In this document: one piece after another, positions 25,303 to 41,751 of the stretch
Layout: each line of letters opens with the position of its first letter
Position numbering within the stretch: the stretch's first letter is position 1
Assembly: GCA_039193195.1 (NCBI GenBank)
Contig: JBCCWS010000003.1
Span: 186,001 to 250,000, forward strand
Source of the DNA: Pseudomonadota bacterium
GTDB taxonomy: Bacteria; Pseudomonadota; Gammaproteobacteria; Steroidobacterales; JBCBZW01
Length of the DNA stretch: 64,000 nucleotides
Direction: 5' to 3'
Made by a program: the position numbers and the translations under genes
The notes under the pieces: generated by a model
Database searches by the model: none
What the model was told of the DNA's origin: nothing
Seen by the model: only the letters and a program-made list of their open reading frames with translations

Positions 25303-27222
25303 CTAGGGCAGAGAGTCCACGCTGGTACCACGGCAAGAGGCGAGCTCCACCGCCTGCACGAAGCTGCCGCAGTTCGGCGCCGGCACGTTGAGGTCGCCGC
25401 CGAAGTTGCCGCTCCCATCCGCGGTGAAAACGTTCAGCACGTTGATGCCCTCCAGCCCCAAGGGCAGCCCGGGACAGGGGCTAGCCGCCGGCAACACGCG
25501 GGGGCGCAGGCCATCGCTGCGCAGCAGGATCACGCGCGCGCCCGGCGTGGCACCGGTGCCGTCGAAGTTGACGATGCCCGGGCAGTTACCGGTCGGATTC
25601 AGGGACAGGCCGAGGGAGCGGTTCTCCCAGAACTGGTTGGCCACGGCGCCAAAGCCGAACACGCCAGTACCATCCGCGCCAGTGATGTAGATATCGAGGT
25701 CCCCATCGAGGTCCATGTCGATCACGTCGGCGGACATGCGCTGGTAGGCGCCGTTGTCCGGGAACACCACGCCCGTGCCCGGGTCCGTCGCGTTGGTGAA
25801 GTTACCCGTGCCGTCGTTCACCCAGACCCGGATGTTGTCGTTGGGGTTGGTCACCACAGAGGTGCCAATGGCGTCTATGTCGCCGTCTAAGTCGATGTCC
25901 GCCAGCTCCACGTCGTAGGTGAACTGCTCGGCGCCGGGCAGCACGCGACGGGTAAAGTTGCCTGGGGCGAGCGGGTTGTTGATGAACACGACCGAGCTGA
26001 AGGAGCCGACGATGATGATGTCGTCGAGACCGTCGGCATTGAAGTCACCGGCGGAGCCCGCGAAACCCGTGGCATCGAGGAAGCCGTTGAATACGAAGTT
26101 GGGCACGGGCAGCTGACCATTGTGGCGGAACAGGGCGGCATCACCGCTCTCGTTCACCAGCACCACGTCCGGGAAGCCGTCGTCATTGAAGTCCGTGAAG
26201 AACGCGTCGTGCATGGAGCCACTCGGCGCACTGGCGGTAATCGTATTGCTGAAAGTCGTGCCGCCGCCGTTGATGTAAACCTGGCCACGGGTGCTGAAGC
26301 GAAAGGCCGCGAGCACGTCGACGAAGCCGTCGAAGTTTACGTCCCAGTGACCGATATCATCGGGCGACCCGCTCGGGAAGTCGGGGTTGGGGAACCAGTT
26401 GTTCGAGTCCTCGACGAAACGGCCCGGCACGCCGTTGAAGTTGTTCATCACCACGCGCACAAAGGTGTTCGCTTGGCTTGCGGCCTGCACCCAGTCGGGC
26501 AGGTCGTCGTTGTTGAGGTCGATGAAGTCAGCGTCGTAGGAGACCGCGTCGCCAACGAAGTTACCGCCAGGCAGCACGGTGGTTACGAAAGGACCGTCCG
26601 TGTCGGCGGCATTCACCGGTTCGAAGTTGATCGGCGTGAAGAAAAGGCCCAGGCGGTTGATGCGCAGCACCTCGTGGGTGCCATTGCCCTGGTTGTTGGA
26701 GTTGTTGTCGATGATGTCGGGGTAGCCGTCGCCGTTGATGTCTGCGACGTCCGCATCCTTGGTGCGCGCGGTGTTGAAGTTGCCGTCGCCCAAGAAACCG
26801 GAGACGTCGAAGTCATCGTCCAGGCGGGTCTTTTCGAACAGGTCGAAGGTGGCGCCGCCCGCGCTGATAATCTCCGCCGCGACGGGCGCGGACGTGCCGT
26901 CTGCCATTGTCACGCTCACCTGCACGCCGCCGAGGCTGACCGGGCCGTTGGTGCCGCCGGCCGGCACGCGGATGGAGATGTAGTCGTCGCGCCAGACGTA
27001 GGGCACACCGCCTGCGGTCACCGCACCACCGCCGGCCGCGGTGAAGGTGACCTGGCTGACGCCGGGTTGGTAGGTGCCGAACCCACTGCCGCGCAGCACG
27101 ATGCGCTCATGCACGCGCTGGGCCGTGGGTGAAACGCTGTCGATAGCGGGCACGGCGAGAGCGCCCGCGCTAGCAAGTACGCTACCGAGCAGCGCAATGC
27201 TAGCAATCCTATTAGCAGTCAT
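25303..27222 (-). CDS. Exported IPT/TIG and FG-GAP (VCBS) repeat protein
   Basis: 639 residues with a signal peptide (MTANRIASIALLGSVLASAG). Residues about 25-120 form an IPT/TIG immunoglobulin-like domain (IDSVSPTAQRVHERIVLRG). From about 150 to 560 there are at least seven calcium-loop FG-GAP/VCBS repeats: DINGDGYPDI, DLNNDDLPDW, DVNFDGFVDV, DFNDDGFPDV, DFNADGLDDI, DIDLDGDIDA and DMDLDGDLDI. These make an integrin-type beta-propeller. A C-terminal region with three Cys ends without a known sorting signal. Likely a secreted or surface calcium-binding protein of unknown ligand. A terminator at 27315 isolates it from the gene upstream. Confidence 0.88.
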   Translation of the reverse strand: MTANRIASIALLGSVLASAGALAVPAIDSVSPTAQRVHERIVLRGSGFGTYQPGVSQVTFTAAGGGAVTAGGVPYVWRDDYISIRVPAGGTNGPVSLGGVQVSVTMADGTSAPVAAEIISAGGATFDLFEKTRLDDDFDVSGFLGDGNFNTARTKDADVADINGDGYPDIIDNNSNNQGNGTHEVLRINRLGLFFTPINFEPVNAADTDGPFVTTVLPGGNFVGDAVSYDADFIDLNNDDLPDWVQAASQANTFVRVVMNNFNGVPGRFVEDSNNWFPNPDFPSGSPDDIGHWDVNFDGFVDVLAAFRFSTRGQVYINGGGTTFSNTITASAPSGSMHDAFFTDFNDDGFPDVVLVNESGDAALFRHNGQLPVPNFVFNGFLDATGFAGSAGDFNADGLDDIIIVGSFSSVVFINNPLAPGNFTRRVLPGAEQFTYDVELADIDLDGDIDAIGTSVVTNPNDNIRVWVNDGTGNFTNATDPGTGVVFPDNGAYQRMSADVIDMDLDGDLDIYITGADGTGVFGFGAVANQFWENRSLGLSLNPTGNCPGIVNFDGTGATPGARVILLRSDGLRPRVLPAASPCPGLPLGLEGINVLNVFTADGSGNFGGDLNVPAPNCGSFVQAVELASCRGTSVDSLP

Positions 27223-28221: not shown

Positions 28222-30003
28222 ATGAATACAACGACACGGTGGTGCGTTGCCGCGGCAGCGACACTCGCCTTTGGAGGGCCCCACGCGAGCGAGCGCGTGC
28301 AGTTCTCCGACGCCTCGGCGAGCTCCGGGCTCACCAGTTTTCAACACTTCTCCTACGGCTTCGGCGGCGACGGCCTCGCCGGTGCCGCATGGTTCGACTA
28401 CAACAACGACGGTCTGCTCGACCTCTATCTCACCAACGGCAAGGACGCGACGGGCGAGGTCGCGGGCCGGGTCGGCTTCGACAACGCGCTGTTCGAAAAC
28501 CAGGGCGACGGCACGTTTCTCAATGTGGCCGCCGTCAAGGGCGTGACCTCCGGTGCTGGCGACTCCGGCGCCATCGCGGCGGACATCGACAACGATGGCG
28601 ATCAGGATCTGTTCCTTACGGGCGATGGCGGCATGCTCGGCGAAGATCCGCTCACGGGTATCCAGACCGTCGACACGGGCGTGCGCCTATACATCAACCA
28701 AGGCGCGCCGGACTACGCCTTCGTCGAAGCGGACAACGAGGCAGTGGGCCTCACGGGCTTTGAAACCACGATGAGCGCAGCCTTCGGCGACATCGACAGC
28801 GACGGCCGGCTCGACCTCTTCGTCACCGCCAGCGGCACCCGCGGCATCGGCTGCTCCCCGCCGAACGGCTGCTTCGATGACGACCCCACGATCCAGCTGC
28901 ACAAGAGTCGTCTGTACCTCAACCGCTCGGCCGACGGCGAGATCCGCTTCCGCGACATCACCGACGCCTCCATCATCGGCGACACCCAATACGGTGCCCT
29001 GGCCACCGCCTTCTCCGACTACGATCGCGACGGCCGCATGGACCTGTTCGTGGTCAACGGCGTGCTCACGACCTTCGGACCAACGCCGGTGCAGCTGTAC
29101 CACAATCGCGGCATCGACGCGGTGGGCCGCACGGTGCTGTTCGACGACATCACCAACGAGGTGGGCCTGGAAGCGCAAAGCGCGTGGATGTGCATCGCGG
29201 GCGCCGACTTCGATGGCGATCTCGGCATCGACTGGTTCATCACCAACACGGGCAACAGCCAGCGCCCCCACGCCCTCTACCACTGGTCCCAGCGCCAGGG
29301 ACGCTACAACGACGTGGCGGAGCTCACGCAGCTGAACGGCCCCAGCCCTAGCCCGGCGGACTACTTCGGCTGGGGCGCCGTAGGCGAGGACTTCGACCTC
29401 GACGGGCGCGCGGACCTGTTCTTTGGCGGCAGCCCGCCGCCGCTCGAGGGAACGGGGCCAAACAACCCTGGCGTGCTGCTGATGAACGATCCGCCGACGC
29501 CGCTCTTCGTCGACTACACCGCGGACACCACCGTCGACATGTCCGACTGGTACACCTCGGGGGTCGCCGCGGCCGACTACGACAACGACGGCCGCGTGGA
29601 CATCCTGGTCGCCACCGATAGCTGGGACGGCGACGGACGCTCTGCGCAGCTCACGGGCACGCCCGTGCTGCTACGCAACGAGACCGTCAACGACAACGCG
29701 TGGATCACCCTACGCCTGCAGGGCAACGGCATCGACACCAACCGCGATGCGGTCGGCGCGCGCGTGCTGCTGATCGTGGGTGAACCGCCGAACCGCACGA
29801 TCCAGGTGCGGGAGATCTACGCAGGCTCGAGCTTCCTGTCGATGGACAGTCCCTGGATGACCTTCGGCCTCGGTGACATCGAGCCGGGCACGCGCATACT
29901 CGCCGCCATCGACTGGCCCAACGGGCCGCAGACCGCGGGCAACATCTGGGACGTGCGCGGGCCGCTCACACCGAATCAGATCGTGGATATCGTCCAGGAC
30001 TGA
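28222..30003 (+). CDS. CRTAC1-family exported protein (FG-GAP plus ASPIC/UnbV)
   Basis: 593 residues with a short signal peptide ending near residue 22. The N-terminal 450 residues are an FG-GAP propeller with seven calcium loops (YNNDGLLDLYLTNG, DIDNDGDQDLFLTG, DIDSDGRLDLFVT, DYDRDGRMDLFVVNG, DFDGDLGIDWFITN, DFDLDGRADLFF, DYDNDGRVDILVAT). The last 110 residues are an ASPIC/UnbV domain: WITLRLQGNGIDTNRDAVGA, VREIYAGSSFLS, FGLGD, then a truncated end. CRTAC1 homologues are secreted calcium-binding proteins often found in TonB/Sus-like or surface-protein loci; the function is unknown. It has its own promoter and a 3' hairpin. Confidence 0.9.
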   Translation: MNTTTRWCVAAAATLAFGGPHASERVQFSDASASSGLTSFQHFSYGFGGDGLAGAAWFDYNNDGLLDLYLTNGKDATGEVAGRVGFDNALFENQGDGTFLNVAAVKGVTSGAGDSGAIAADIDNDGDQDLFLTGDGGMLGEDPLTGIQTVDTGVRLYINQGAPDYAFVEADNEAVGLTGFETTMSAAFGDIDSDGRLDLFVTASGTRGIGCSPPNGCFDDDPTIQLHKSRLYLNRSADGEIRFRDITDASIIGDTQYGALATAFSDYDRDGRMDLFVVNGVLTTFGPTPVQLYHNRGIDAVGRTVLFDDITNEVGLEAQSAWMCIAGADFDGDLGIDWFITNTGNSQRPHALYHWSQRQGRYNDVAELTQLNGPSPSPADYFGWGAVGEDFDLDGRADLFFGGSPPPLEGTGPNNPGVLLMNDPPTPLFVDYTADTTVDMSDWYTSGVAAADYDNDGRVDILVATDSWDGDGRSAQLTGTPVLLRNETVNDNAWITLRLQGNGIDTNRDAVGARVLLIVGEPPNRTIQVREIYAGSSFLSMDSPWMTFGLGDIEPGTRILAAIDWPNGPQTAGNIWDVRGPLTPNQIVDIVQD

Positions 30004-31438: not shown

Positions 31439-31976
31439 CTAGTGTCCCCTTGAAACAGGCAGGTGCGACCGTCTCCCTACGTTCGACCCCGCCTCATCGA
31501 TATTAGTGGCACGGACCCATCCATCCTGGAATCGCGCGCCCTGACCTCCCTGTCAATCGGCACAGGCGAACGCCTGCGCTGATTGGACAGTGTCACACCG
31601 ATGATTCGGCAAGGTAAAGCGTCGTTCGCGTGCTGCGCCCGCAGCACAGGCGAGATATGCGGCAGTGCGTGAGGTCAGAAATCGGTGCCACGGGGCGAAC
31701 ACCATCACCGGGCGAGTCGCCATCGCGTCGGAGGCGCTCGAGGCGAAATCGATGACAACATCCACAGGCACCTACCCCACATCATTGCTCTCCAATCCGA
31801 AGTTCACGGATTTTTTGAGTGATCCACGACAGTCGGAGGCGGGTCGCCGCCGCTCCCACCGGCGCTTGGGGGCTACAATGGCGACGCGGCGGGACGCGGC
31901 GGCACTGACGGGCGTGTCGAGCGCCGCTGCGTCGTGGGTGCGACGATTGGCGTACCACTGTCGCTACGGATCAAGG
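31439..31976. other. 538-bp divergent region upstream of the sigma-CHAT-subtilase locus
   Basis: I find no supported gene here. The open frame that continues upstream of the sigma factor to 31665 has a Ser/Arg-rich, non-conserved translation and is not accepted as coding. TACAAT at 31874-31879 could be a -10 element, but no convincing -35 lies 16-18 bases before it, so the promoter may be of an alternative-sigma type. The length leaves room for autoregulation by the encoded sigma factor. Confidence 0.5.
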
Positions 31977-32630
31977 ATGAACGACGCCTCGCAAGCCAAC
32001 GGTTCGCCAGCGGACGCGCGCTTACTCAACGACGCCCTTGCCGGCGATCGTGCCCAGCTTAAGGCGCTGCTCGACCGACTCACGCCCATCGTGCAAGCGC
32101 GCGTAGCGCGCTGCCTGCTGCGCACCGGCCAGGCTCGTGACGTGCGCCGCGACGTCGAAGACCTCACGCAAGACGCACTGGTTGAGCTGTTCACCAATGA
32201 CGCTCACGTGCTGAGGGCGTGGCGCGACGACGCCGGCCTCTCCCTGAACAACTACGTGGGCTTGGTCACGGAGCGTCGCACCATTTCCGCTATGCGCAGT
32301 GCCCGACGCAATCCCTGGCGCGAGCAGCAAGCCGACGAGGACGCGCCAGAGGCGGTCGACTCGACCCCAGCGGTGGAGCGGCGCGTACTCGCCGGTGATC
32401 TTCTCGAACGAATGCTCGGGCGCCTGCGCGAGAGCCTTACGCCCCTGGGCTTCCATCTGTTCGAGCTACTCTACGTGCAGGAGCTGGATACGCCCCAGGT
32501 GTGCGCTGCCACGGAGCTGTCACCAGAGGCGGTTTACGCCTGGCGAAGCCGCCTGCGCCGGGCCGCCCGACAGGTCCACGCGGAACTCATGTCAGATTCG
32601 TCCGACAGCGGGCGAAGTCCACCTCACTAG
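31977..32630 (+). CDS. Sigma-70-family (ECF-like) RNA polymerase sigma factor
   Basis: 217 residues from the ATG at 31977, which has TCAAGG just upstream. Region 2 spans about 20-100: LLDRLTPIVQARVARCLL, then DVEDLTQDALVELFTND (the core-binding helix with the DLTQD motif) and NNYVGLVTERRTISAMR (the -10-recognition helix). Region 4 spans about 145-205: LTPLGFHLFELLYVQELDTP and a helix-turn-helix, VCAATELSPEAVYAWRSRLR. The 45-residue linker is acidic. No regions 1 or 3 are present, as in ECF factors. The next gene, 16 bp downstream, encodes an anti-sigma-like protein, then a CHAT lipoprotein and a subtilase. The factor probably drives this operon and perhaps neighbours. Confidence 0.9.
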   Translation: MNDASQANGSPADARLLNDALAGDRAQLKALLDRLTPIVQARVARCLLRTGQARDVRRDVEDLTQDALVELFTNDAHVLRAWRDDAGLSLNNYVGLVTERRTISAMRSARRNPWREQQADEDAPEAVDSTPAVERRVLAGDLLERMLGRLRESLTPLGFHLFELLYVQELDTPQVCAATELSPEAVYAWRSRLRRAARQVHAELMSDSSDSGRSPPH

Positions 32631-32646
32631 TACCAACCGCTCAGCC

Positions 32647-33552
32647 ATGAACGAAGAAGACGATCTGTTGATCTCCCTGGCGACCCAACGACGCGAAGCC
32701 GATGCCGACTGGCAGTCGAACCTGGCGCGCCTGGGCCTCGAGGACGTGCTCCTCGAGAAGCACGCGGCGGGCCGGCTGACTGTTGAGGAGCGGTCACGGC
32801 TCGAGACGATCGCGCAGAGCAGCGAGGAGGCGAGTCGCATCGTCGAGGCTTACGCACCGTTCAGCGGTGAGCGCCAAAGCACCCTGCTCGAGCGGGTGAC
32901 GGCGACGCTCGAAGACGGCTCGGCGGCGCCCGCCGCCGCGCGCGAGGAGACAACCAGCGCCAAGGTCACGCTGCTCACGCCGAGGGTGCAGCGCCGCGGT
33001 TGGCGCCCTGCCGTAGCGATTCCCTCCGCTTTGGCGGCAGGCCTGTTGCTCGCTGTGCTGTTGCCCACGCTACTCACCGGGCCCACGCCCAGCCAAGCGC
33101 TGCCTAGCTACGTGCTGCAGGTCGACGGTATGACAGCTGAGCTGCGCGCAGATCCAACCCAGGAGGTACGGATCACGCCGACCAGCCCTGCGCCCGTCGC
33201 CGTGGCGGTGGCGCCCGGCAACCAGCTACGCCTGCTGATGACACCGGGCACGCAAACCGAGGCGGCGGTGAGCACACGCCTGTACCTGCAGTCACCGTCC
33301 CAAGCCACCCCCACAGCCCTGAACCTCGATCCCGCCCTCGTGCGTACCGCGCCCAGCGGCGCCGTGCGCATCGAGGCCCGGGTGGGCGAGCAGCTGCCCC
33401 TGCCCGCGGGCGCATCCCGACTCTTCGTCGTCATTGGGCTTGAAGATGCGCTACCCACCGCCGCTAAGCTAACCGGGTTGATTGGTGAGTACGGAGGCAT
33501 CGACGGCGAGTCCTGGCAGGCCTTCGCGCTGGACCTCACCCTGAGCGAGTAG
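32647..33552 (+). CDS. Single-pass membrane protein, anti-sigma-like
   Basis: 301 residues. The first 117 residues are charged and helical (EDDLLISLATQRREADADW and a Glu-rich stretch to about 75) and face the cytoplasm. One transmembrane helix lies at about 121-142 (VAIPSALAAGLLLAVLLPTL). The remaining 160 residues are outside and beta-rich. I see no zinc-finger HxxxCxxC, so this is not a classical ZAS anti-sigma factor. Order and spacing (16 bp after the sigma gene, 15 bp before the CHAT gene) plus topology fit an anti-sigma or a transducer between the periplasmic CHAT protein and the sigma factor. That role is inferred. Confidence 0.8.
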   Translation: MNEEDDLLISLATQRREADADWQSNLARLGLEDVLLEKHAAGRLTVEERSRLETIAQSSEEASRIVEAYAPFSGERQSTLLERVTATLEDGSAAPAAAREETTSAKVTLLTPRVQRRGWRPAVAIPSALAAGLLLAVLLPTLLTGPTPSQALPSYVLQVDGMTAELRADPTQEVRITPTSPAPVAVAVAPGNQLRLLMTPGTQTEAAVSTRLYLQSPSQATPTALNLDPALVRTAPSGAVRIEARVGEQLPLPAGASRLFVVIGLEDALPTAAKLTGLIGEYGGIDGESWQAFALDLTLSE

Positions 33553-33567
33553 CGAGCGACGTCGCCC

Positions 33568-36384
33568 ATGCAAGGTTCAGCGCCCATCGCCCTGCTCCTG
33601 AGCACCGTCACCGCCCTAACCCTAGGGGCGTGCTCTCGCCAAGACACCCCGCCCGCCGCATCCTCCGATGCGTTGACCAACCTCCAGTGGCAGACGCCAC
33701 TGTTCACCGGATGCGACAGCGTACTGGCGGGCCCTATCTGCCTGCTGAGCGAGGACACTCCCTTGCATCTGTGGCTCCCGCACGCGAGTGGGGAGCTGAA
33801 GATCGTCGGCGGTGAGGTCTTGGCCCAAAACACCGTCGACGGCGGCCAGTACCTGGAGATAATGCCCCAGCGACTGCCTGGCACCGTGACGCTCACGCCG
33901 ACGCGGTCCAGCGCGCCGGGGCGAGCACGCTGGCGCTTCGATATCGCTAGCGGCAGCGCGATCGAACCCGTGCTGAGCAAAGGCAGAGCACTGCGGATGC
34001 AGCGTGATCACGAGCAGGCTATCGATGCGATTACCCCCCTGCTCGACGACGAGAGTCATCCGCGAAACGTCCTCGCCAAGGCCTACGCATCCCATTGGGC
34101 CGGTCAAGCACACTTGGCCGCAGGCGATGCCGACGGCGCCTTGACCCTGCTCCATCGGGCCATCGAGCACTACGCCCGAGTGGACCGTCCGGAGGCGCTC
34201 ATCGACGGCGCGACGGTAGCCCTCTACCTGCATCTACAGCGCAGCGAGTTTGCCCAAGCGGGCGCCCTGCTCGAGCGCATTCGTCCGCGCGGCGCAGCGC
34301 TCGACAAGCTAGGCGGACGGGGTCGCTACCTCCTCGACTACTACACCGGCGCCCTCGCCAGCCACGTGGGCGACTACCGCAACGCCCTGACCCACTTGCA
34401 GCGTGCCGCGACGACGGCGAAGCGCCTCGAACTCCACGGCCATCAGCAGCTCGCCGAGCAGTGGTTGGCGCTGCAGCTGCAGGCAGTCGGTCGGCGCGAG
34501 GAAGCGGATCGGCTACTGGTCGCCCTTTCCTCCCGCTCGAGCTCACAAGCGGGCTCGTGCTCACGGGCGCAGCTCGCCAACAACATCGGCTGGAACCGAC
34601 TCCTCGCCCTGGAATCTCGCCAAGCAGCACCCGACCCGGTACCTCCTCTGCGCGAAGCGCTCGCCGCCTACCAGGACCCGGCCTGTCAGCGGACGCGTGA
34701 GCAGCTTGCCAACGCTCGAATCAACCTGAGCCTCGCCTACCTGCACGCCGGCGACCTCGACGCTTCGGCTCGACTTCTCAACGCCCTGGGCGACGAGCCG
34801 GATCTGGCACCAGGGCTAGCCCTTTGGCTACACGATGCGCAGGGACGGGTTGCCCTGAGGCGCGATAACCCCAAGGCTGCCCTGCGCGCCTACGATGCCC
34901 TCGCTGCGCTCGCCCGTCGACGCTACGACGACCAGGCGCAATGGCGCGCGCAAGCGGGACGGGCGCAAGCGTTGGAGACGCTCGGTGAACTCCAAGGAGC
35001 GCTCGATGCCTACGCTCGGGCGGAAGCCTTGCTCGCCCTGCAGACCGTGCAGGTGCCGGTCAATGCGGGGCGAGAGACCTTCTTGACCCGCCACCGCTGG
35101 GTCACCCTCGCCTACCTGCGTTTGCTTATCGACCAGGGACAGCTCAGGCAGGCGTATGCCGTTGCCCGCGCGGCGCGCAGCCGTACCTTACGCAGCTTGC
35201 GCCGATCGGATCGCCTTGCGGCGCTCGATGAGGACGAGCGCGCGCAGTGGCAAGCGGCCATGTCCGCATACGTCCGCGCCCGCGACCAGTTGGCTGGCGA
35301 GGTGGCTGAGGACTGGATGCTGCCGGCCGACGCGCTAGCCCCGACGCGCGCCGCGCGCGAGACGCTCGCGATCGACCTACGCCGTACCCTCGATGGCGCA
35401 TTCGCCGTGCTCGACCGCCTCCCCGGGCCCGAGGCAGGCGAAAAGCGCCTGCGCCCGCCGGGAGCAACTCAGCTGTTGTTCTTCTCGACCCACGAGGATG
35501 GCACTGACTACGCGCGGTGGCTCGCGTTCGCCGAGAGTGACGAGGGGCTAGAGGCGACGGAGATCGCGTGCCCACTCAAGGCCCTCGAGGATCCGCAAGG
35601 GCACGCTGACCTCTTGAGTGCCTGCTTGCTGGAACCGTTCGCATCCGCCATCGACGGGGCGCGGCAGCTCCGCCTACTCACCTCGGGCGTGCTCAACAAT
35701 CTGGACGTCCACGCCTTGCCTTGGACCGACGCACCACTGCTCGCCCACGTGCCCGTGAGCTACGCGCTCGATACGGCCGCCTCGCCGACGCGGCCTGCAG
35801 CGCTATCCTTGCCCGCAGCGCTCGTAGTCGGCGACCCGCGCGGCGACCTACCGGCCGCGCGCCAGGAAGCGCACCGGGTGGCCACCCTGCTCACTCAGCA
35901 GCGGCCGCAGCCTCCCCACGTGCTCCTGGGCGGCGACGCCAACCTCCCTAGCCTGCGCGCGGCGCTGGAGCAGGCGGACCTATTCCACTACGCCGGCCAC
36001 GCCATGTTCGGCGGCCGCGGAGGATGGGACAGCTCCCTACCACTCGCAGGCGATACCGCCTTTACGGTGGGGGACATCCTCGCCCTGCGCCGGGCCCCAA
36101 CGCAGGTGGTGCTGTCTGGCTGTGAGACCGGGCGAGCGCAGGCAGACGCCGACGTGAGCCAAGGCATCGGCATCGCCCATGCGTTTCTTGCCGCGGGAAG
36201 TCACTCGGTCATTGCCGCCACTCGCCCGGTAGAAGATGACATCGCCAACGCCCTGGTCACTGCCCTTTACGAACGCTGGCGCCCTGGCGCCGACGTAGGC
36301 GAGTCCCTGCGCGAGGCGCAGCTCGCCCTGGCGCGCCAGGCGCCGGCAGCGGACTGGTTTAGCTTCCGACACATCACCCTATGA
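33568..36384 (+). CDS. TPR-CHAT lipoprotein (caspase-like protease)
   Basis: 938 residues. A lipoprotein signal (PIALLLSTVTALTLGAC, Cys22) is followed by an Ig-like N-terminal part (about 40-135), then TPR-like helical repeats from about 150 to 550. Examples are AKAYASHWAGQAHLAAGDAD, RYLLDYYTGALASHVGDYR and LANARINLSLAYLHAGDLD. The CHAT domain covers about 620-938. YAGHAMFGGRGG gives the catalytic His811 and VVLSGCETG gives Cys852, with GIAHAFLAAGS and DWFSFRHIT closing the fold. The family includes separase-like and caspase-like proteases activated by a partner. A lipid-anchored, exported CHAT protein is unusual. It is 15 bp after the anti-sigma-like gene and 64 bp before the subtilase gene. 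Confidence 0.92.
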   Translation: MQGSAPIALLLSTVTALTLGACSRQDTPPAASSDALTNLQWQTPLFTGCDSVLAGPICLLSEDTPLHLWLPHASGELKIVGGEVLAQNTVDGGQYLEIMPQRLPGTVTLTPTRSSAPGRARWRFDIASGSAIEPVLSKGRALRMQRDHEQAIDAITPLLDDESHPRNVLAKAYASHWAGQAHLAAGDADGALTLLHRAIEHYARVDRPEALIDGATVALYLHLQRSEFAQAGALLERIRPRGAALDKLGGRGRYLLDYYTGALASHVGDYRNALTHLQRAATTAKRLELHGHQQLAEQWLALQLQAVGRREEADRLLVALSSRSSSQAGSCSRAQLANNIGWNRLLALESRQAAPDPVPPLREALAAYQDPACQRTREQLANARINLSLAYLHAGDLDASARLLNALGDEPDLAPGLALWLHDAQGRVALRRDNPKAALRAYDALAALARRRYDDQAQWRAQAGRAQALETLGELQGALDAYARAEALLALQTVQVPVNAGRETFLTRHRWVTLAYLRLLIDQGQLRQAYAVARAARSRTLRSLRRSDRLAALDEDERAQWQAAMSAYVRARDQLAGEVAEDWMLPADALAPTRAARETLAIDLRRTLDGAFAVLDRLPGPEAGEKRLRPPGATQLLFFSTHEDGTDYARWLAFAESDEGLEATEIACPLKALEDPQGHADLLSACLLEPFASAIDGARQLRLLTSGVLNNLDVHALPWTDAPLLAHVPVSYALDTAASPTRPAALSLPAALVVGDPRGDLPAARQEAHRVATLLTQQRPQPPHVLLGGDANLPSLRAALEQADLFHYAGHAMFGGRGGWDSSLPLAGDTAFTVGDILALRRAPTQVVLSGCETGRAQADADVSQGIGIAHAFLAAGSHSVIAATRPVEDDIANALVTALYERWRPGADVGESLREAQLALARQAPAADWFSFRHITL

Positions 36385-36448
36385 ACACCGTCAACGCTCA
36401 CACAGCGAATAACACCGGCCAGCAACGCACTGGCAAAGGAGACTCGAC

Positions 36449-38479
36449 ATGCGCTTCCAAATGACAGCTAGACGGGCTGCCCCTGGCCTAGCCATATTAT
36501 TCGCATGTTTGACCACAGCAGCCGCCCTGGCGGCGCCAGAAGACCCGCCGATCGATCCGAACGATGCGCGCATCCTCTGGCGCTGGGTCGGCATCAGCAC
36601 GAACCCTGAACAACCGTGTCCCGCGGCGTTCGGATGGGAAGAAGAACGTCTATTCGAGGATCCGGAACTGCCCGTGCCACCCCCAGGACTCGCCCGCTAC
36701 TGCGTGTACGAGCTACCTGACGACACGCCCTTCAGCAACACGCTGCGCAACAACTTACAGGCGCTGCTTGGCAACGGCTCGCTCAGCGCCGTCGAACCCG
36801 ACCAGATGGCGCTATCGGCGGAAGCTGAGGGCCAACTCCCGCCACGCCTATTCCGCCAGCTGAGTGAGCACTTCTTGCGCGAAGTCGGTCAACCGATCGA
36901 TCCCCTGAGCTTCCCAGCCGACGGCGACTCGGTACGCCTGACCCTGCTCGACACCCAGCCCTCGGGCGCCAACCCCGAGCTGTTCACCCAATACACCTCA
37001 GCCCACGGCTATACGCTCGCCACGCTGATCGAGCGCATGATCTGCAACGGCGCGGCAGGCGACTGCGCAGCGGACGTGCGTACGCGCCTGACCTTGGGCA
37101 ACGTGTGCTTCGATCAGCGCAGCAAGGATAGCGCCTGCCGCAACGGGCTCAACGGCGGCTGGTTCGGCGCCCAGACCGACCTCGCGCGCGCCATTCGTAA
37201 CGAAGTGGCGGAGTGGACGAACGATACGACCCCGCGGGGGATGGGCGAACAGCAACACCTCATCCTCAATCTCTCCCTTGGCTGGAACCGGCGCTTTGGC
37301 GGCAACCAGGGCTTCAACGCGATGCCCCTTGCCGTGGCCGCCGTCTACTCCGCCCTGCAGGATGCGAGCTGCCGCGGAGCGCTCGTCTTGGCCGCGGCCG
37401 GCAATCAGCACGGCGGCCCTAACGAGCCCGGTGGCCCCATGTACCCAGCAGCGTGGGAGCAAAGGGCCGCACCGAACTTCCTCCAATGCCGTTTACAGCT
37501 GATCGAGCAGGGCGGCTACACACCGCCTTGGGCCTTCCCTTCACAACTCACCTCGCAGAACGACCGCCCCCTAGTGGTGGCCATCGGCGGCGTACGGGTC
37601 GACAACTCGATCATCTTCAATGGGCGACCGAACGGCGGAGAGCCGACCTTAGTGGCTTTCGCCGATCACGCCGCGACGGAGTCGCTGGCGATCCCCAACA
37701 CGCCGACCATCACCCTCACGGGCACCTCCGTGGCGAGTGCCGTCGTGTCCGCCGCCGCCGCCGTCGCCTGGCGCTTCAAGAACGCGCTACCGACCAGGCA
37801 GCTGCTGGACCGCATCGCCCTCTCGGGCACGGACGTCGGGCGGGAAGCGGATTTCTGTCTCAACGGTCGGGGCGGCGGTGCCAACGCCTGCCCCAACCCT
37901 GTCCCCAACGTTCGGCGCGTCACCCTGTGCGCCACCATCGAGTGCGTGCGCGATGACAACTGCGCGGGGTCATACCCAAGCTGCCCCACGCCGATCCGTT
38001 TGGAACTCACGGGCGTGGACGACATCGCGCCCACCTCGGACTTTGCCACCATCACCGACACGCTCGTGGATCCGGGCTGCGACGGCATTGTTACCCACTA
38101 CGACCCGTTGCAAGGGATCCCCGCAAACCCGTGCCTTGCAAAGCAGTACCACGGGATCAACTCGGTGCCTTGGGTGGACCCGCAGCCGGGCGACCTGCCC
38201 TGCCCCAACTGCTTCGTGCAGTTCATGAGCCCCGGCACCTTCTACTACGAGATCGACCCCCAGCTCGCCGAGAGCTTCACGGACATCACCCTCCAGTGCG
38301 GTAACGATGCATTCGTGCTGCCCTTCCCAACGCTCGATTCCTTGGACTTCGGTGCCATGGCCAACGTGAAGTGCCCGGTGGCCGAGCCGGTGCAGCTGCT
38401 GATGCGCGACAGTGGCGGGCGCACGCACATCTCACCCGTGCTGTACATCGACCCTATTACGCCGCCGAACCCGCAGTAG
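36449..38479 (+). CDS. Exported subtilisin-like (S8) serine protease, atypical
   Basis: 676 residues with a signal peptide ending near residue 29. The subtilase core carries Asp168 in RLTLLDTQPSG, His186 in SAHGYTLATLI, Asn319 in LAAAGNQHGG and Ser427 in LTGTSVASAVVSAA. The Asp-His interval of 18 residues is far shorter than the 30-60 usual in the family. The His-to-Asn interval holds a Cys-rich insertion (ICNGAAGDCAADVRTRLTLG). The last 200 residues are Cys-containing (LCATIECVRDDNCAGSYPSC) and could be a C-terminal binding domain. It ends PPNPQ without a sorting motif. As the last gene of the sigma/anti-sigma/CHAT run it is the likely partner or target of the CHAT protein. Confidence 0.88.
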   Translation: MRFQMTARRAAPGLAILFACLTTAAALAAPEDPPIDPNDARILWRWVGISTNPEQPCPAAFGWEEERLFEDPELPVPPPGLARYCVYELPDDTPFSNTLRNNLQALLGNGSLSAVEPDQMALSAEAEGQLPPRLFRQLSEHFLREVGQPIDPLSFPADGDSVRLTLLDTQPSGANPELFTQYTSAHGYTLATLIERMICNGAAGDCAADVRTRLTLGNVCFDQRSKDSACRNGLNGGWFGAQTDLARAIRNEVAEWTNDTTPRGMGEQQHLILNLSLGWNRRFGGNQGFNAMPLAVAAVYSALQDASCRGALVLAAAGNQHGGPNEPGGPMYPAAWEQRAAPNFLQCRLQLIEQGGYTPPWAFPSQLTSQNDRPLVVAIGGVRVDNSIIFNGRPNGGEPTLVAFADHAATESLAIPNTPTITLTGTSVASAVVSAAAAVAWRFKNALPTRQLLDRIALSGTDVGREADFCLNGRGGGANACPNPVPNVRRVTLCATIECVRDDNCAGSYPSCPTPIRLELTGVDDIAPTSDFATITDTLVDPGCDGIVTHYDPLQGIPANPCLAKQYHGINSVPWVDPQPGDLPCPNCFVQFMSPGTFYYEIDPQLAESFTDITLQCGNDAFVLPFPTLDSLDFGAMANVKCPVAEPVQLLMRDSGGRTHISPVLYIDPITPPNPQ

Positions 38480-38799
38480 GCGGGGAAAAAAGGTCCGGCG
38501 CGGGGGGGAGCGCCAGACCGGAGAAAAAAACGCCTGGATGATCCGGGGTCCGCGCGCCCGCGAAGGTTGGCTGACCGGGGTGCCAATGAGAGCGCGCGGG
38601 GGACCATCCAGACGAACTGCGCAGGCGAAGTCCCGGTCACGCCTGCTTGATCCTTGAGGGAGGACGGACATCAAGCGCGATTCCGACTCCTTGTCCCTCT
38701 TGCCTAGTGGCCTTTCTATCGGGTTCTTCACACCCATCCTGATGAACGGTCGACTGGGAGAGACCCTACGGAGGCGTCGCAGGCGAAGGGGCATCCGCG
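38480..38799. other. 320-bp intergenic region between the S8 and M14 peptidase genes
   Basis: No gene supported. It holds the hairpin with an adjoining A-tract at 38486-38519 and, at about 38535-38613, an imperfect long inverted repeat (TGGATGATCC and GGACCATCCA with CGCGCGC blocks). The two neighbouring genes converge here, so the structures are probably 3'-end signals. Confidence 0.55.
38486..38519 (-). terminator. Terminator-like hairpin for the M14 gene
   Basis: GGTCCGGCGC and GCGCCAGACC pair at 9 of 10 positions around a G-rich loop. The six A bases to the left become TTTTTT after the stem on the minus strand, so this would stop leftward transcription from the M14 peptidase gene, though nearly 300 bp past its stop. 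Confidence 0.6.
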
Positions 38800-41379
38800 T
38801 TATGACATATCCGTGGCCTGCTCGCGTCGGCAGCGCTGCTCGGCCTGGTCGACGATCGCCCGGTCGAACTCGATGGCCGAGTTAAAAAACAACCCGTTGC
38901 TGTACATGCGCTGCGAGCCGCGGAAGTAAGCGCGAAAGTTGGGAACATCCGCAAACAGGATAAGGCGACCACGTCCCACAGGCTCGGCGATCACCGCCAC
39001 ACTCCCGCCCAAACGCTTGGCGTTCTCGGGGGAGACGAACCCCGAGAGCACTGGTGCCTCCTCGTCGTACACGGCTACGTTCGCGAAACGATCCGCGACG
39101 CGACGAAAGCGCAGCTCTCCCTTGTGGAACATCGGTAACCGCTCGTCCGGCAGGCCAAAGGCCAGGGGGTGGGTCAGGTCGACTCGACTGGCCAAGATCG
39201 CCCCGGCGATACGCTCGCGCTGAAGCACTTCGGCGCGGTCCCCGTAGCTTGCTGGCAACCCTGACGGCGGCAACTCGCTCACTCTGAGGCGGGTGACGGG
39301 CTGCTCCGCCCACCACTTCGCCGCTCGACGCTGAGCGATCACCGTGCCGCCTCCGCACGCGTAGTCGCGCAAGCGCTCGCCAACCTGTGCATCAAGATCT
39401 TCGTAGTCGCCGTCTGCCATCAGCACGTGCGAGTACGCACGTAGCGATAAGCGCTCGAGTTGGTCGAGCTCGACGAGCGTGGTCGGCAGCCCTAGGCGCT
39501 TATCGGTGAGGTGCCAAATCTCCCCTACCTCGTAGGCGGACGTGCCTGGCCCCGCTAGCAGCAGCAACTTGGCCTTGCCGATGGCGGCGGTGCTGCGCCC
39601 CCCGAGGTCCGGGCCCACAGGGGTCAGGCCCGTGCTCAGGGCGTACACGTGGGCGCGCTCTTCATCGATGACCTGGGCGACGAGTTCATCGAGTGTCTTC
39701 CTCGACTTGCTTTGCGTCCCGATTAGCGCCACTACGGCGCCGCGCTCGAAGGCGATCATCTGACCGTCGACCTCAGCGCCAAATGGCTCGGTCATCACCC
39801 GCAGACGCAAGCCCTCGCGCAACCAGGTGGCGGCCGCTGGCGGGCTCTCGCTGCGCTGCCAATCGAGCACGTAGGCGACGGCCGTTGCCGAATCGCCGTG
39901 CAACGCCCCAGGAGCGAGGGGGCTCGTGCGAAGCACTCGCTCACCGCGGGCCGGTAGCGCGCTCACCCGCGTGACGTCGATATCGTAGGCGAGGTCCGCG
40001 TTCCACGCAGAGACGTCGTAGAAGGTGGGGTCCGCGAACTCGGTGACCGGTTCGAACAAGGTCTGGACGAGGCGAAATCGAATCTGCTCCGCAGGTACCA
40101 AGAAGGCGTGCTGCGGTGCCTGCGCCTGACGGAACACCTCGATGTCATGACCAGCGAGCAAGCGTGCGAGGGAGTAGCCTCGGTGCGGGTCACCCGGCGT
40201 CGAGAACACCCAACCACCGCCCGTCGCTTTGCCAGCGGCGAGCGCATCGCGCCGCGTGCTGCGTTGATGGATGGCCAAGGCTTGGCGGTTGGCTTGGGCA
40301 CCTGCCAGCAGGGAGCGTGACGTGGCGAACTGGTTTCGAATCGCCTGCTTCAGGGTAACCGTCCCGTTCGGCGAGCGCTGCGCTAGGCCTCGGGCGCTCG
40401 CTTGCTCAAACAGGACGCCGACACTTCCCTGCAGGTCTGGGTAGGTCGATCCCTTGCCGTAGTAGAAGTCGTCGAAAGCCTCCCGCGTGAAATAGGGTTG
40501 GGCGAAGGCATCGAGCGCCCTGGCGTGAAACCGTGCGATCTGCGCCGTGAGTTCAACGGTGCGAGCAGAGGTGAGCGGGTTGTTCCGCGAGGGCACACCC
40601 GGCTGAAAGAAGTAGGTGGCCGATGTCCCCATCTCGTGGTAGTCGCCAACCACGTGCGGCAACCAGCGCTGGTACCACTCGACGCGCGACCGGGACTCCG
40701 GGTGCTGAAGCAGGAGCCAATCACGATTCAGGTCGAACCAGTAGTGGTTAGTTCTTCCATTAGGCCACGCTTCGCGATGCTCGCGATGATTCGGATCGCT
40801 AGCCTCGATTCGGTTGCGATGAGCATTAACCCAGCTGGTGAACCGCTGCATGCCATCAGGGTTGGCCGACGGCTCGATGATCACCACCGTATTTCCAAGA
40901 TTTACTTCTAGCGCGTCGAGCGGCGCGGCGGCCAGATGGTATACCGTGTAGGTGGACGCGTGCGCACCGCTGGTCTCATTGCCGTGCACGGAGTAGACGA
41001 ACCAGGCCACGAGGGGGCCTGGCGTCTCGGCCAGGCCGTCAGCGTAGGCCACGTGGGCACTGCGTAAGTCCTCCAGGCGAGCTAAGTTCTCGGGCGTGGA
41101 AATGATCGCCAACACGTGACGGCGCATCTCGTGCGTGCTGCCGATCTCGACCAATTGCACGCGCTCGCTAGCGCCCGCGACGGCCTCGAAGTAACGAAGC
41201 AATTCGTCGTGGCTGAGGTGTCGCTCACCCACCTCGAAACCAAAGACCTGTTCACCGGTGGGCACAGTCGTATCGTAGGTTACCGCTTCCGGCAGGGGGT
41301 TGGCGCAGGCGAAGGACGCCGCGCACGCCAGCGCAACAAAGGCCGAGCACGTGCTCGAGGGGGAAGTTCGGGGTGTCAC
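38800..41379 (-). CDS. Exported M14-family zinc carboxypeptidase
   Basis: 859 residues from a GTG at 41379, with GAGGAG six bases upstream; the frame continues to 41421 without features. A signal peptide (SAFVALACAASFACA) is followed by the M14 catalytic domain at about 30-390. HGNETSG gives the zinc ligands His132 and Glu135. EPSANPDGM and NHYWFDLNRDW form the substrate pocket. GDYHEMGTSATYFF holds a further His, and GVLFEQAS the catalytic Glu. The C-terminal 450 residues are not catalytic, and one part resembles a glutamine-amidotransferase-like or Rossmann domain (IGKAKLLLLAGPGTSAYEVG). Such long M14 proteins are secreted peptidases. It converges with the S8 protease gene; the pair makes a peptidase-rich corner. 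Confidence 0.9.
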   Translation of the reverse strand: MTPRTSPSSTCSAFVALACAASFACANPLPEAVTYDTTVPTGEQVFGFEVGERHLSHDELLRYFEAVAGASERVQLVEIGSTHEMRRHVLAIISTPENLARLEDLRSAHVAYADGLAETPGPLVAWFVYSVHGNETSGAHASTYTVYHLAAAPLDALEVNLGNTVVIIEPSANPDGMQRFTSWVNAHRNRIEASDPNHREHREAWPNGRTNHYWFDLNRDWLLLQHPESRSRVEWYQRWLPHVVGDYHEMGTSATYFFQPGVPSRNNPLTSARTVELTAQIARFHARALDAFAQPYFTREAFDDFYYGKGSTYPDLQGSVGVLFEQASARGLAQRSPNGTVTLKQAIRNQFATSRSLLAGAQANRQALAIHQRSTRRDALAAGKATGGGWVFSTPGDPHRGYSLARLLAGHDIEVFRQAQAPQHAFLVPAEQIRFRLVQTLFEPVTEFADPTFYDVSAWNADLAYDIDVTRVSALPARGERVLRTSPLAPGALHGDSATAVAYVLDWQRSESPPAAATWLREGLRLRVMTEPFGAEVDGQMIAFERGAVVALIGTQSKSRKTLDELVAQVIDEERAHVYALSTGLTPVGPDLGGRSTAAIGKAKLLLLAGPGTSAYEVGEIWHLTDKRLGLPTTLVELDQLERLSLRAYSHVLMADGDYEDLDAQVGERLRDYACGGGTVIAQRRAAKWWAEQPVTRLRVSELPPSGLPASYGDRAEVLQRERIAGAILASRVDLTHPLAFGLPDERLPMFHKGELRFRRVADRFANVAVYDEEAPVLSGFVSPENAKRLGGSVAVIAEPVGRGRLILFADVPNFRAYFRGSQRMYSNGLFFNSAIEFDRAIVDQAEQRCRREQATDMS

Positions 41380-41751
41380 TGCGGGCTCCTCGCAATCGAG
41401 GCCCGTGCGCGGGCCCCGCAACCGCAGAGCCTAACGCGATCAGCGCAAGGTGGGTCGCCGAGGCGACCGATCAATGGGTACCGTCAGGGCGCGGATGCGC
41501 GGTGCGAGCAGGCGAAGGCCTCGAGAGCCTTGCTGCGCGTTTTGAGCAGCTTCAACACGTCGCGCCAGCTGACCATGGGATCCACGCTACCGCCCGGGCG
41601 GTCATGATGGCAGCTACCTGCATCGCCCCCGCTCCAAGAGTGTTGGCCAGCTTTGGCGCCGGATTAGGACGCTCCTTCGACAGGCTGGATGCGCCGCGTC
41701 GCAGGGCTCCTGAGCTCCACGCCGGGTGGCGACTGCGTCACGCCCTCGCGC
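41380..41751. other. 372-bp intergenic region upstream of the M14 gene
   Basis: No clear gene. One minus-strand micro-frame at 41484-41576 (30 residues, MVSWRDVLKLLKTRSKALEA and ten more) has an amphipathic, coding-like look but no detectable ribosome-binding site, so I do not call it. The stretch must hold the promoter of the M14 peptidase gene and the 3' end of the MFS gene. Confidence 0.5.

Follow-up and report, generated by a model that had tools for sequence, protein, structure and literature searches.

An extracytoplasmic function sigma factor operon encoding exported CHAT and subtilase proteases, a candidate envelope-signalling cassette in the order Steroidobacterales

What might tie a transcription factor to two proteases that are exported from the cell? 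The question is raised by a four-gene operon at positions 31977-38479 of the window, a stretch of 64,000 nucleotides from a gammaproteobacterial contig of the order Steroidobacterales (JBCCWS010000003.1 of assembly GCA_039193195.1, positions 186,001 to 250,000). The operon encodes, on the + strand throughout, an extracytoplasmic function (ECF)-type sigma factor of 217 amino acids with only the sigma2 and sigma4 regions (31977-32630), a single-pass membrane protein that is probably a zinc-less anti-sigma factor (32647-33552), a TPR-CHAT caspase-like protease with a lipoprotein signal (33568-36384) and an exported S8 (subtilase) protease with a Sec signal peptide (36449-38479). The intergenic gaps of 16, 15 and 64 bp, and the strands, are exactly those given in the first-pass annotation, an earlier reading of the same DNA. 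We consider it very probable that the four genes form a functional envelope-signalling module. Our best explanation as a whole, a self-contained cassette in which proteolysis releases the sigma factor, is offered tentatively and falls somewhat short of an even chance.

The sister species G001, the only other genome of the family in the comparison, carries the four genes in unchanged order. Identity between the two operons amounts to 90% for the sigma factor, 74% for the membrane protein, 78% for the CHAT protein and 81% for the S8 protease; the corresponding ratios of non-synonymous to synonymous substitution rates (dN/dS) are 0.09, 0.26, 0.17 and 0.15. Because the gene order is kept at such low ratios, the four open reading frames can be taken as real genes under purifying selection.

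The sigma protein matches TIGR02937 over residues 53-198 with an E-value of 2e-9 and 37.3 bits, below the cut-off of 42.9, and its sigma2 and sigma4 regions match ECF models. All 40 members of the CHAT-linked ECF sigma family (alignment A1) match TIGR02937, and a profile of this family, which includes the window protein, recovers it at E=8e-31. We regard it as a weak but consistent ECF match. The CHAT protein matches PF12770 over the cut-off (E=6e-35), and the His811/Cys852 dyad of this fold is invariant in an alignment of 36 sequences, together with L761 and W930. Its lipobox, LGAC, is kept in G001; lipidation is likely and less than certain because the n-region of the signal (MQGSA in the window, MHGSG in G001) contains neither Lys nor Arg. 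A sequence search of the PDB with the CHAT protein returned nothing significant. The S8 protein exceeds the cut-off of PF00082 (E=1e-8) and has a complete triad, Asp168, His186 and Ser427, with Asn319 at the oxyanion position; these residues were placed by alignment with G001 and with other CHAT-linked S8 proteins, and are the same in G001. Family matches and alignments thereby confirmed the sigma, CHAT and S8 identities proposed in the first-pass annotation, including the catalytic pair of the CHAT protein, whose conservation had been named there as a test.

In the RseA/DegS/RseP-sigmaE pathway, a single-pass anti-sigma factor with its N-terminus inside carries a periplasmic domain, and DegS, an S1C protease, is encoded apart. 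The membrane protein of the window is likewise single-pass with a periplasmic domain, whereas the CHAT and S8 proteases are encoded within the operon and the presumed anti-sigma head belongs to a different type, one that lacks zinc. It comprises a helical N-terminal head (residues 1-117, cytoplasmic), a transmembrane segment (~119-143) and an immunoglobulin (Ig)-like beta domain (~184-299, periplasmic). An AlphaFold2 model places helices at 3-89 and beta strands at 184-299, with a mean predicted local distance difference test (pLDDT) score of 55, which is low confidence. Together with the adjoining sigma gene, these features make up the layout of an anti-sigma factor, as far as a model of this quality permits. 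Foldseek and VIA-align searches with models of the protein related the outer domain to generic Ig-like folds only and gave no match for the head; family scans assigned nothing save one meaningless match below the cut-off, and no significant paralogue was found in the protein's own genome. A single-pass protein adjoins the sigma gene in most of the sigma-linked CHAT loci described below, and members of the anti-sigma family found there (A2) have an N-terminal anti-sigma-type helical domain, a transmembrane segment and an Ig-like outer domain; one member retains the zinc-binding Cys pair, which is lost in most of the others. The window protein shares this layout, its sequence alignment to A2 being limited to the head region. 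From its position, the model and a weak hhalign match, we judge that it is probably a diverged, zinc-less anti-sigma factor.

Does the association hold beyond the genus? Outside it, a BLAST-like search with the operon proteins matched general CHAT domains only and found no S8 relative at E<=1e-8, and for this reason linkage was tested by domain. Contig searches with the S8 protein and with a related CHAT protein likewise found no relatives. CHAT genes were searched by family in 296 genomes of the order, and most of their neighbourhoods, some low-scoring loci being left out and those near contig ends being truncated, were searched for ECF sigma factors, CHAT and S8 proteins by means of iterated profiles that had been seeded within these same loci. 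The starts of open reading frames were assigned by a mechanical rule. An ECF sigma gene was found within 5 kb of 46 of the 112 CHAT open reading frames, against about 4.7 expected from an ECF sigma density of 5.3 per Mb measured in 20 of the order's genomes (Poisson P ~1e-29, a value that ignores shared ancestry). Within 1 kb there were 29, against 1.1 expected. The sigma-linked loci are spread over 33 genomes, which by manual count belong to 16 genera in six families. Distance matrices of sigma and CHAT proteins correlate with r=0.78, or r=0.56 once close relatives are removed, and in 25 loci those of sigma, anti-sigma and CHAT proteins give pairwise correlations of 0.79-0.85. These values match what would be expected for blocks inherited together; part of the correlation stems from the species tree. 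The first-pass annotation had set co-occurrence elsewhere as a test, and the linkage across the order, together with the G001 operon, shows that the parts are kept together. A chance neighbourhood of unrelated genes could appeal to the presence of the exact operon in two genomes only; set against order-wide linkage, co-variation, short gaps and conservation, we regard it as very improbable.

Linked and unlinked CHAT loci also differ in content. An iterated profile detects an anti-sigma domain in 25 of the 46 loci with a linked sigma gene and in one of 60 others; an S8 protease occurs in 13 of 46 as against 0 of 60 (P=6e-6). Export signals, called with a simple rule that included an internal control, are commoner among linked CHAT proteins (30/45) than among unlinked ones (10/43; P=5e-5), so linked CHATs tend to share the side of the membrane on which the Ig-like domain of the anti-sigma protein lies. 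The His/Cys pair is kept in all 47 sigma-linked CHATs. Beyond the order, linkage thins out: among 40 CHAT loci drawn from the class, 7 had a nearby sigma gene, against ~3-4 expected at the ECF density within the order, and three of these seven, with sigma factor, anti-sigma domain and CHAT, belong to one family.

The genome of the window holds further sets of this kind, with a sigma gene near six of its eight CHAT genes. A second set (L023, found also in G001 as L124) comprises a sigma factor, a CHAT lipoprotein, a transmembrane protein and an S8-like protein in a different gene order; a PEP-CTERM protein is encoded directly 5' of it (L023 5399-6001). Two further blocks of sigma, anti-sigma and CHAT genes in this genome (L104 and L105, on G000:C32 and C41) are paralogous in the sigma factor (39%) and in CHAT (38%), and we read the pair as an old duplication of the whole block. 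Cassettes lacking CHAT, in which an ECF sigma factor is followed by an anti-sigma-like transmembrane protein and an exported S8 protease of ~430 amino acids, were seen at L146 5423-7927 (G000:C5) and L145 3976-7494, and comparable loci occur in further families of the order; the distance from sigma to S8 gene is 1-2 kb in many of the compared genomes, and this arrangement looks like a separate conserved cassette.

Sigma factors linked to proteases have been described in other settings. ECF54 sigma factors, whose model member is from the actinobacterium Geodermatophilus amargosae, have a carboxypeptidase, a subtilase and CHAT in their context, and proteolytic control has been proposed for them, the group being listed as having no anti-sigma factor (PMC8999054). 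The operon resembles them in its subtilase and CHAT neighbours and differs in encoding a single-pass, putative anti-sigma protein and in the export signals on both proteases. In type III-E CASP systems, the CRISPR-guided TPR-CHAT protease Csx29 has been shown experimentally to cleave Csx30, an inhibitor of the ECF factor CASP-sigma (PMC10028731). Here too a TPR-CHAT protease, an ECF sigma factor and a putative inhibitor of it come together; Csx29, however, acts in the cytoplasm as an RNA-guided component of a CRISPR effector, whereas the CHAT protein of the window is exported and the putative sigma inhibitor spans the membrane. Finally, the EACC2-caspase systems link a caspase-like protease with an ECF sigma factor and a TPR protein, three components also found in the window, and involve EACC2, TRADD-N and DUF1822 domains; the portion of that account considered here describes no exported set of CHAT, S8 and anti-sigma proteins (Kaur et al. 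2021, PMC8195603). With these precedents in print, the principle of protease-linked control of an ECF sigma factor is not new, and the view of the first-pass annotation that a sigma-linked CHAT protein could not be named holds only in part, given ECF54 and Csx29/Csx30/CASP-sigma, neither of which is lipid-anchored.

CHAT proteases also serve in defence, as in the CHAT-gasdermin systems, and the operon might on that account be a defence or self-killing system whose CHAT protein switches on a lethal effector; a weak PADLOC match to BovA (E=1.5e-4), covering the CHAT domain only, points the same way. Against this, no CRISPR direct repeats lie within 22000-46000 and a defence-model scan of nine neighbouring genes gave no match, so that the array and Cas7-11 by which CASP systems are recognized are not seen there. 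The CHAT protease is moreover exported, and the set is kept in both compared genomes of the genus where a defence system might be patchy. We consider this explanation quite unlikely, and it was dropped, no defence gene having been found near the operon.

How, then, might the four products act together? In our best explanation, the cytoplasmic helical head of the membrane protein would bind the ECF sigma factor and hold it inactive, and the TPR-CHAT lipoprotein would work in the periplasm, where the Ig-like domain also lies. Binding of a cue by the TPRs may unleash the Cys/His protease, upon which the membrane protein would be cut in the periplasm, either by CHAT itself or by S8 in a subsequent step. 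Housekeeping intramembrane proteolysis would then free the sigma factor, which would transcribe the operon and so supply more CHAT together with S8 as a secreted executor. Computation shows that the gene order is conserved, that the catalytic residues are intact and that export signals are present, and it finds linkage beyond chance and co-variation across the order. Of the signal path proposed in the first-pass annotation, the association stands as real and recurrent, and the membrane protein does have an anti-sigma layout; the protease cascade, and with it the steps from cue to sigma release, including the binding of sigma by the membrane protein and the periplasmic cut, are what we infer, as are autoregulation and the part played by S8. 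That the proteases act upstream of the sigma factor in this manner is a little less secure than the explanation as a whole.

Several observations weigh against this arrangement. Most sigma-linked CHAT loci have no S8 gene, many of the linked CHATs are transcribed divergently, and the sigma-anti-sigma-S8 cassettes without CHAT imply that CHAT is not obligatory. Because unlinked CHATs keep the His/Cys pair nearly as well (62/64), catalytic conservation by itself gives a sigma-specific role no support. The hhalign match of the membrane protein to A2 covers 37 amino acids (residues 32-68; E=4e-4, probability 35%), and the iterated hidden Markov model of the anti-sigma domain does not recover the protein. 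No relative of the S8 protease at E<=1e-8 was found beyond its own genus in 369 genomes of the class. The layout of the operon, finally, fits equally well with the proteases as outputs of the pathway.

This last possibility is the nearest rival and almost as likely as a role of the proteases upstream. The Ig-like domain of the membrane protein would itself sense an envelope or surface cue and free the sigma factor by a DegS/RseP-type route, and the sigma factor would raise the exported TPR-CHAT and S8 proteases against outside or damaged proteins or competitors. An autoregulated ECF target typically lies 3' of its sigma gene and is co-transcribed with it, the S8 protease that accompanies the sigma factor is exported, and S8 and CHAT each occur with sigma and anti-sigma genes without the other, like interchangeable cargo. 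The strong co-variation of sigma, anti-sigma and CHAT proteins is, however, tighter than loose cargo would suggest, and in the best-studied sigma-linked case, that of Csx29, the TPR-CHAT protein is regulatory (PMC10028731). A further reading, in which proteolysis keeps the sigma factor off, with the membrane protein serving as scaffold or substrate in place of an anti-sigma factor, takes its lead from the proposal for ECF54, with its subtilase, carboxypeptidase and CHAT neighbours (PMC8999054). We think it improbable, given that the CHAT and S8 proteins of the window carry export signals while the sigma factor is cytoplasmic, and that many of the sister loci encode anti-sigma-like proteins.

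Stated most specifically, the upstream model has an envelope-anchored caspase-like protease cleave a membrane-spanning anti-sigma factor and thereby switch on an ECF sigma factor, as an extracytoplasmic, CRISPR-free counterpart of Csx29-Csx30-CASP-sigma that was duplicated and diversified in one order and to which S8 was added as a further stage. This may be so, and we hold it with more reserve than either the general upstream role or the proteases as outputs. What appears new is the combination of export, an anti-sigma-like partner in the membrane and recurrence throughout one order: an exported CHAT protein with such a partner, its spread and duplication through the order and its link to S8 were not found in the open-access literature that was searched, and ECF classification papers outside that scope could describe them. 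If CHAT proteolysis does control the sigma factor, bacteria would have a caspase-like protease serving as an envelope receptor, and the Csx29 circuit of CRISPR systems would represent a single branch within a larger family of sigma-linked CHAT proteins. The many unexplained exported TPR-CHAT proteins would gain a concrete, testable role, and the genome of the window, with at least five diverged cassettes, offers a setting for studying how parallel cassettes keep their signals specific.

The flanks of the operon contain two conserved elements. The stretch directly 5' of the sigma gene (31906-31976, +) is strongly conserved with G001; since its differences would change amino acids in the sigma frame, it is probably non-coding, and we infer in it a candidate autoregulated promoter. 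Nested inverted repeats 3' of the S8 gene (38476-38625), likewise well conserved in the alignment with G001, probably mark the operon end at 38492-38620; they are no more stable than shuffled sequences (z=-1.3), and their terminator-like T run lies on the - strand. No known RNA family was found in the window. An M14 zinc carboxypeptidase gene (38800-41421, -) is convergent with the operon and adjoins it in G001 as well; it might fit the theme, ECF54 contexts being said to include a carboxypeptidase, but lies on the opposite strand. Two FG-GAP repeat proteins are encoded 5' of the operon (25303-27222, -; 28222-30003, +), the second with an ASPIC/UnbV domain.

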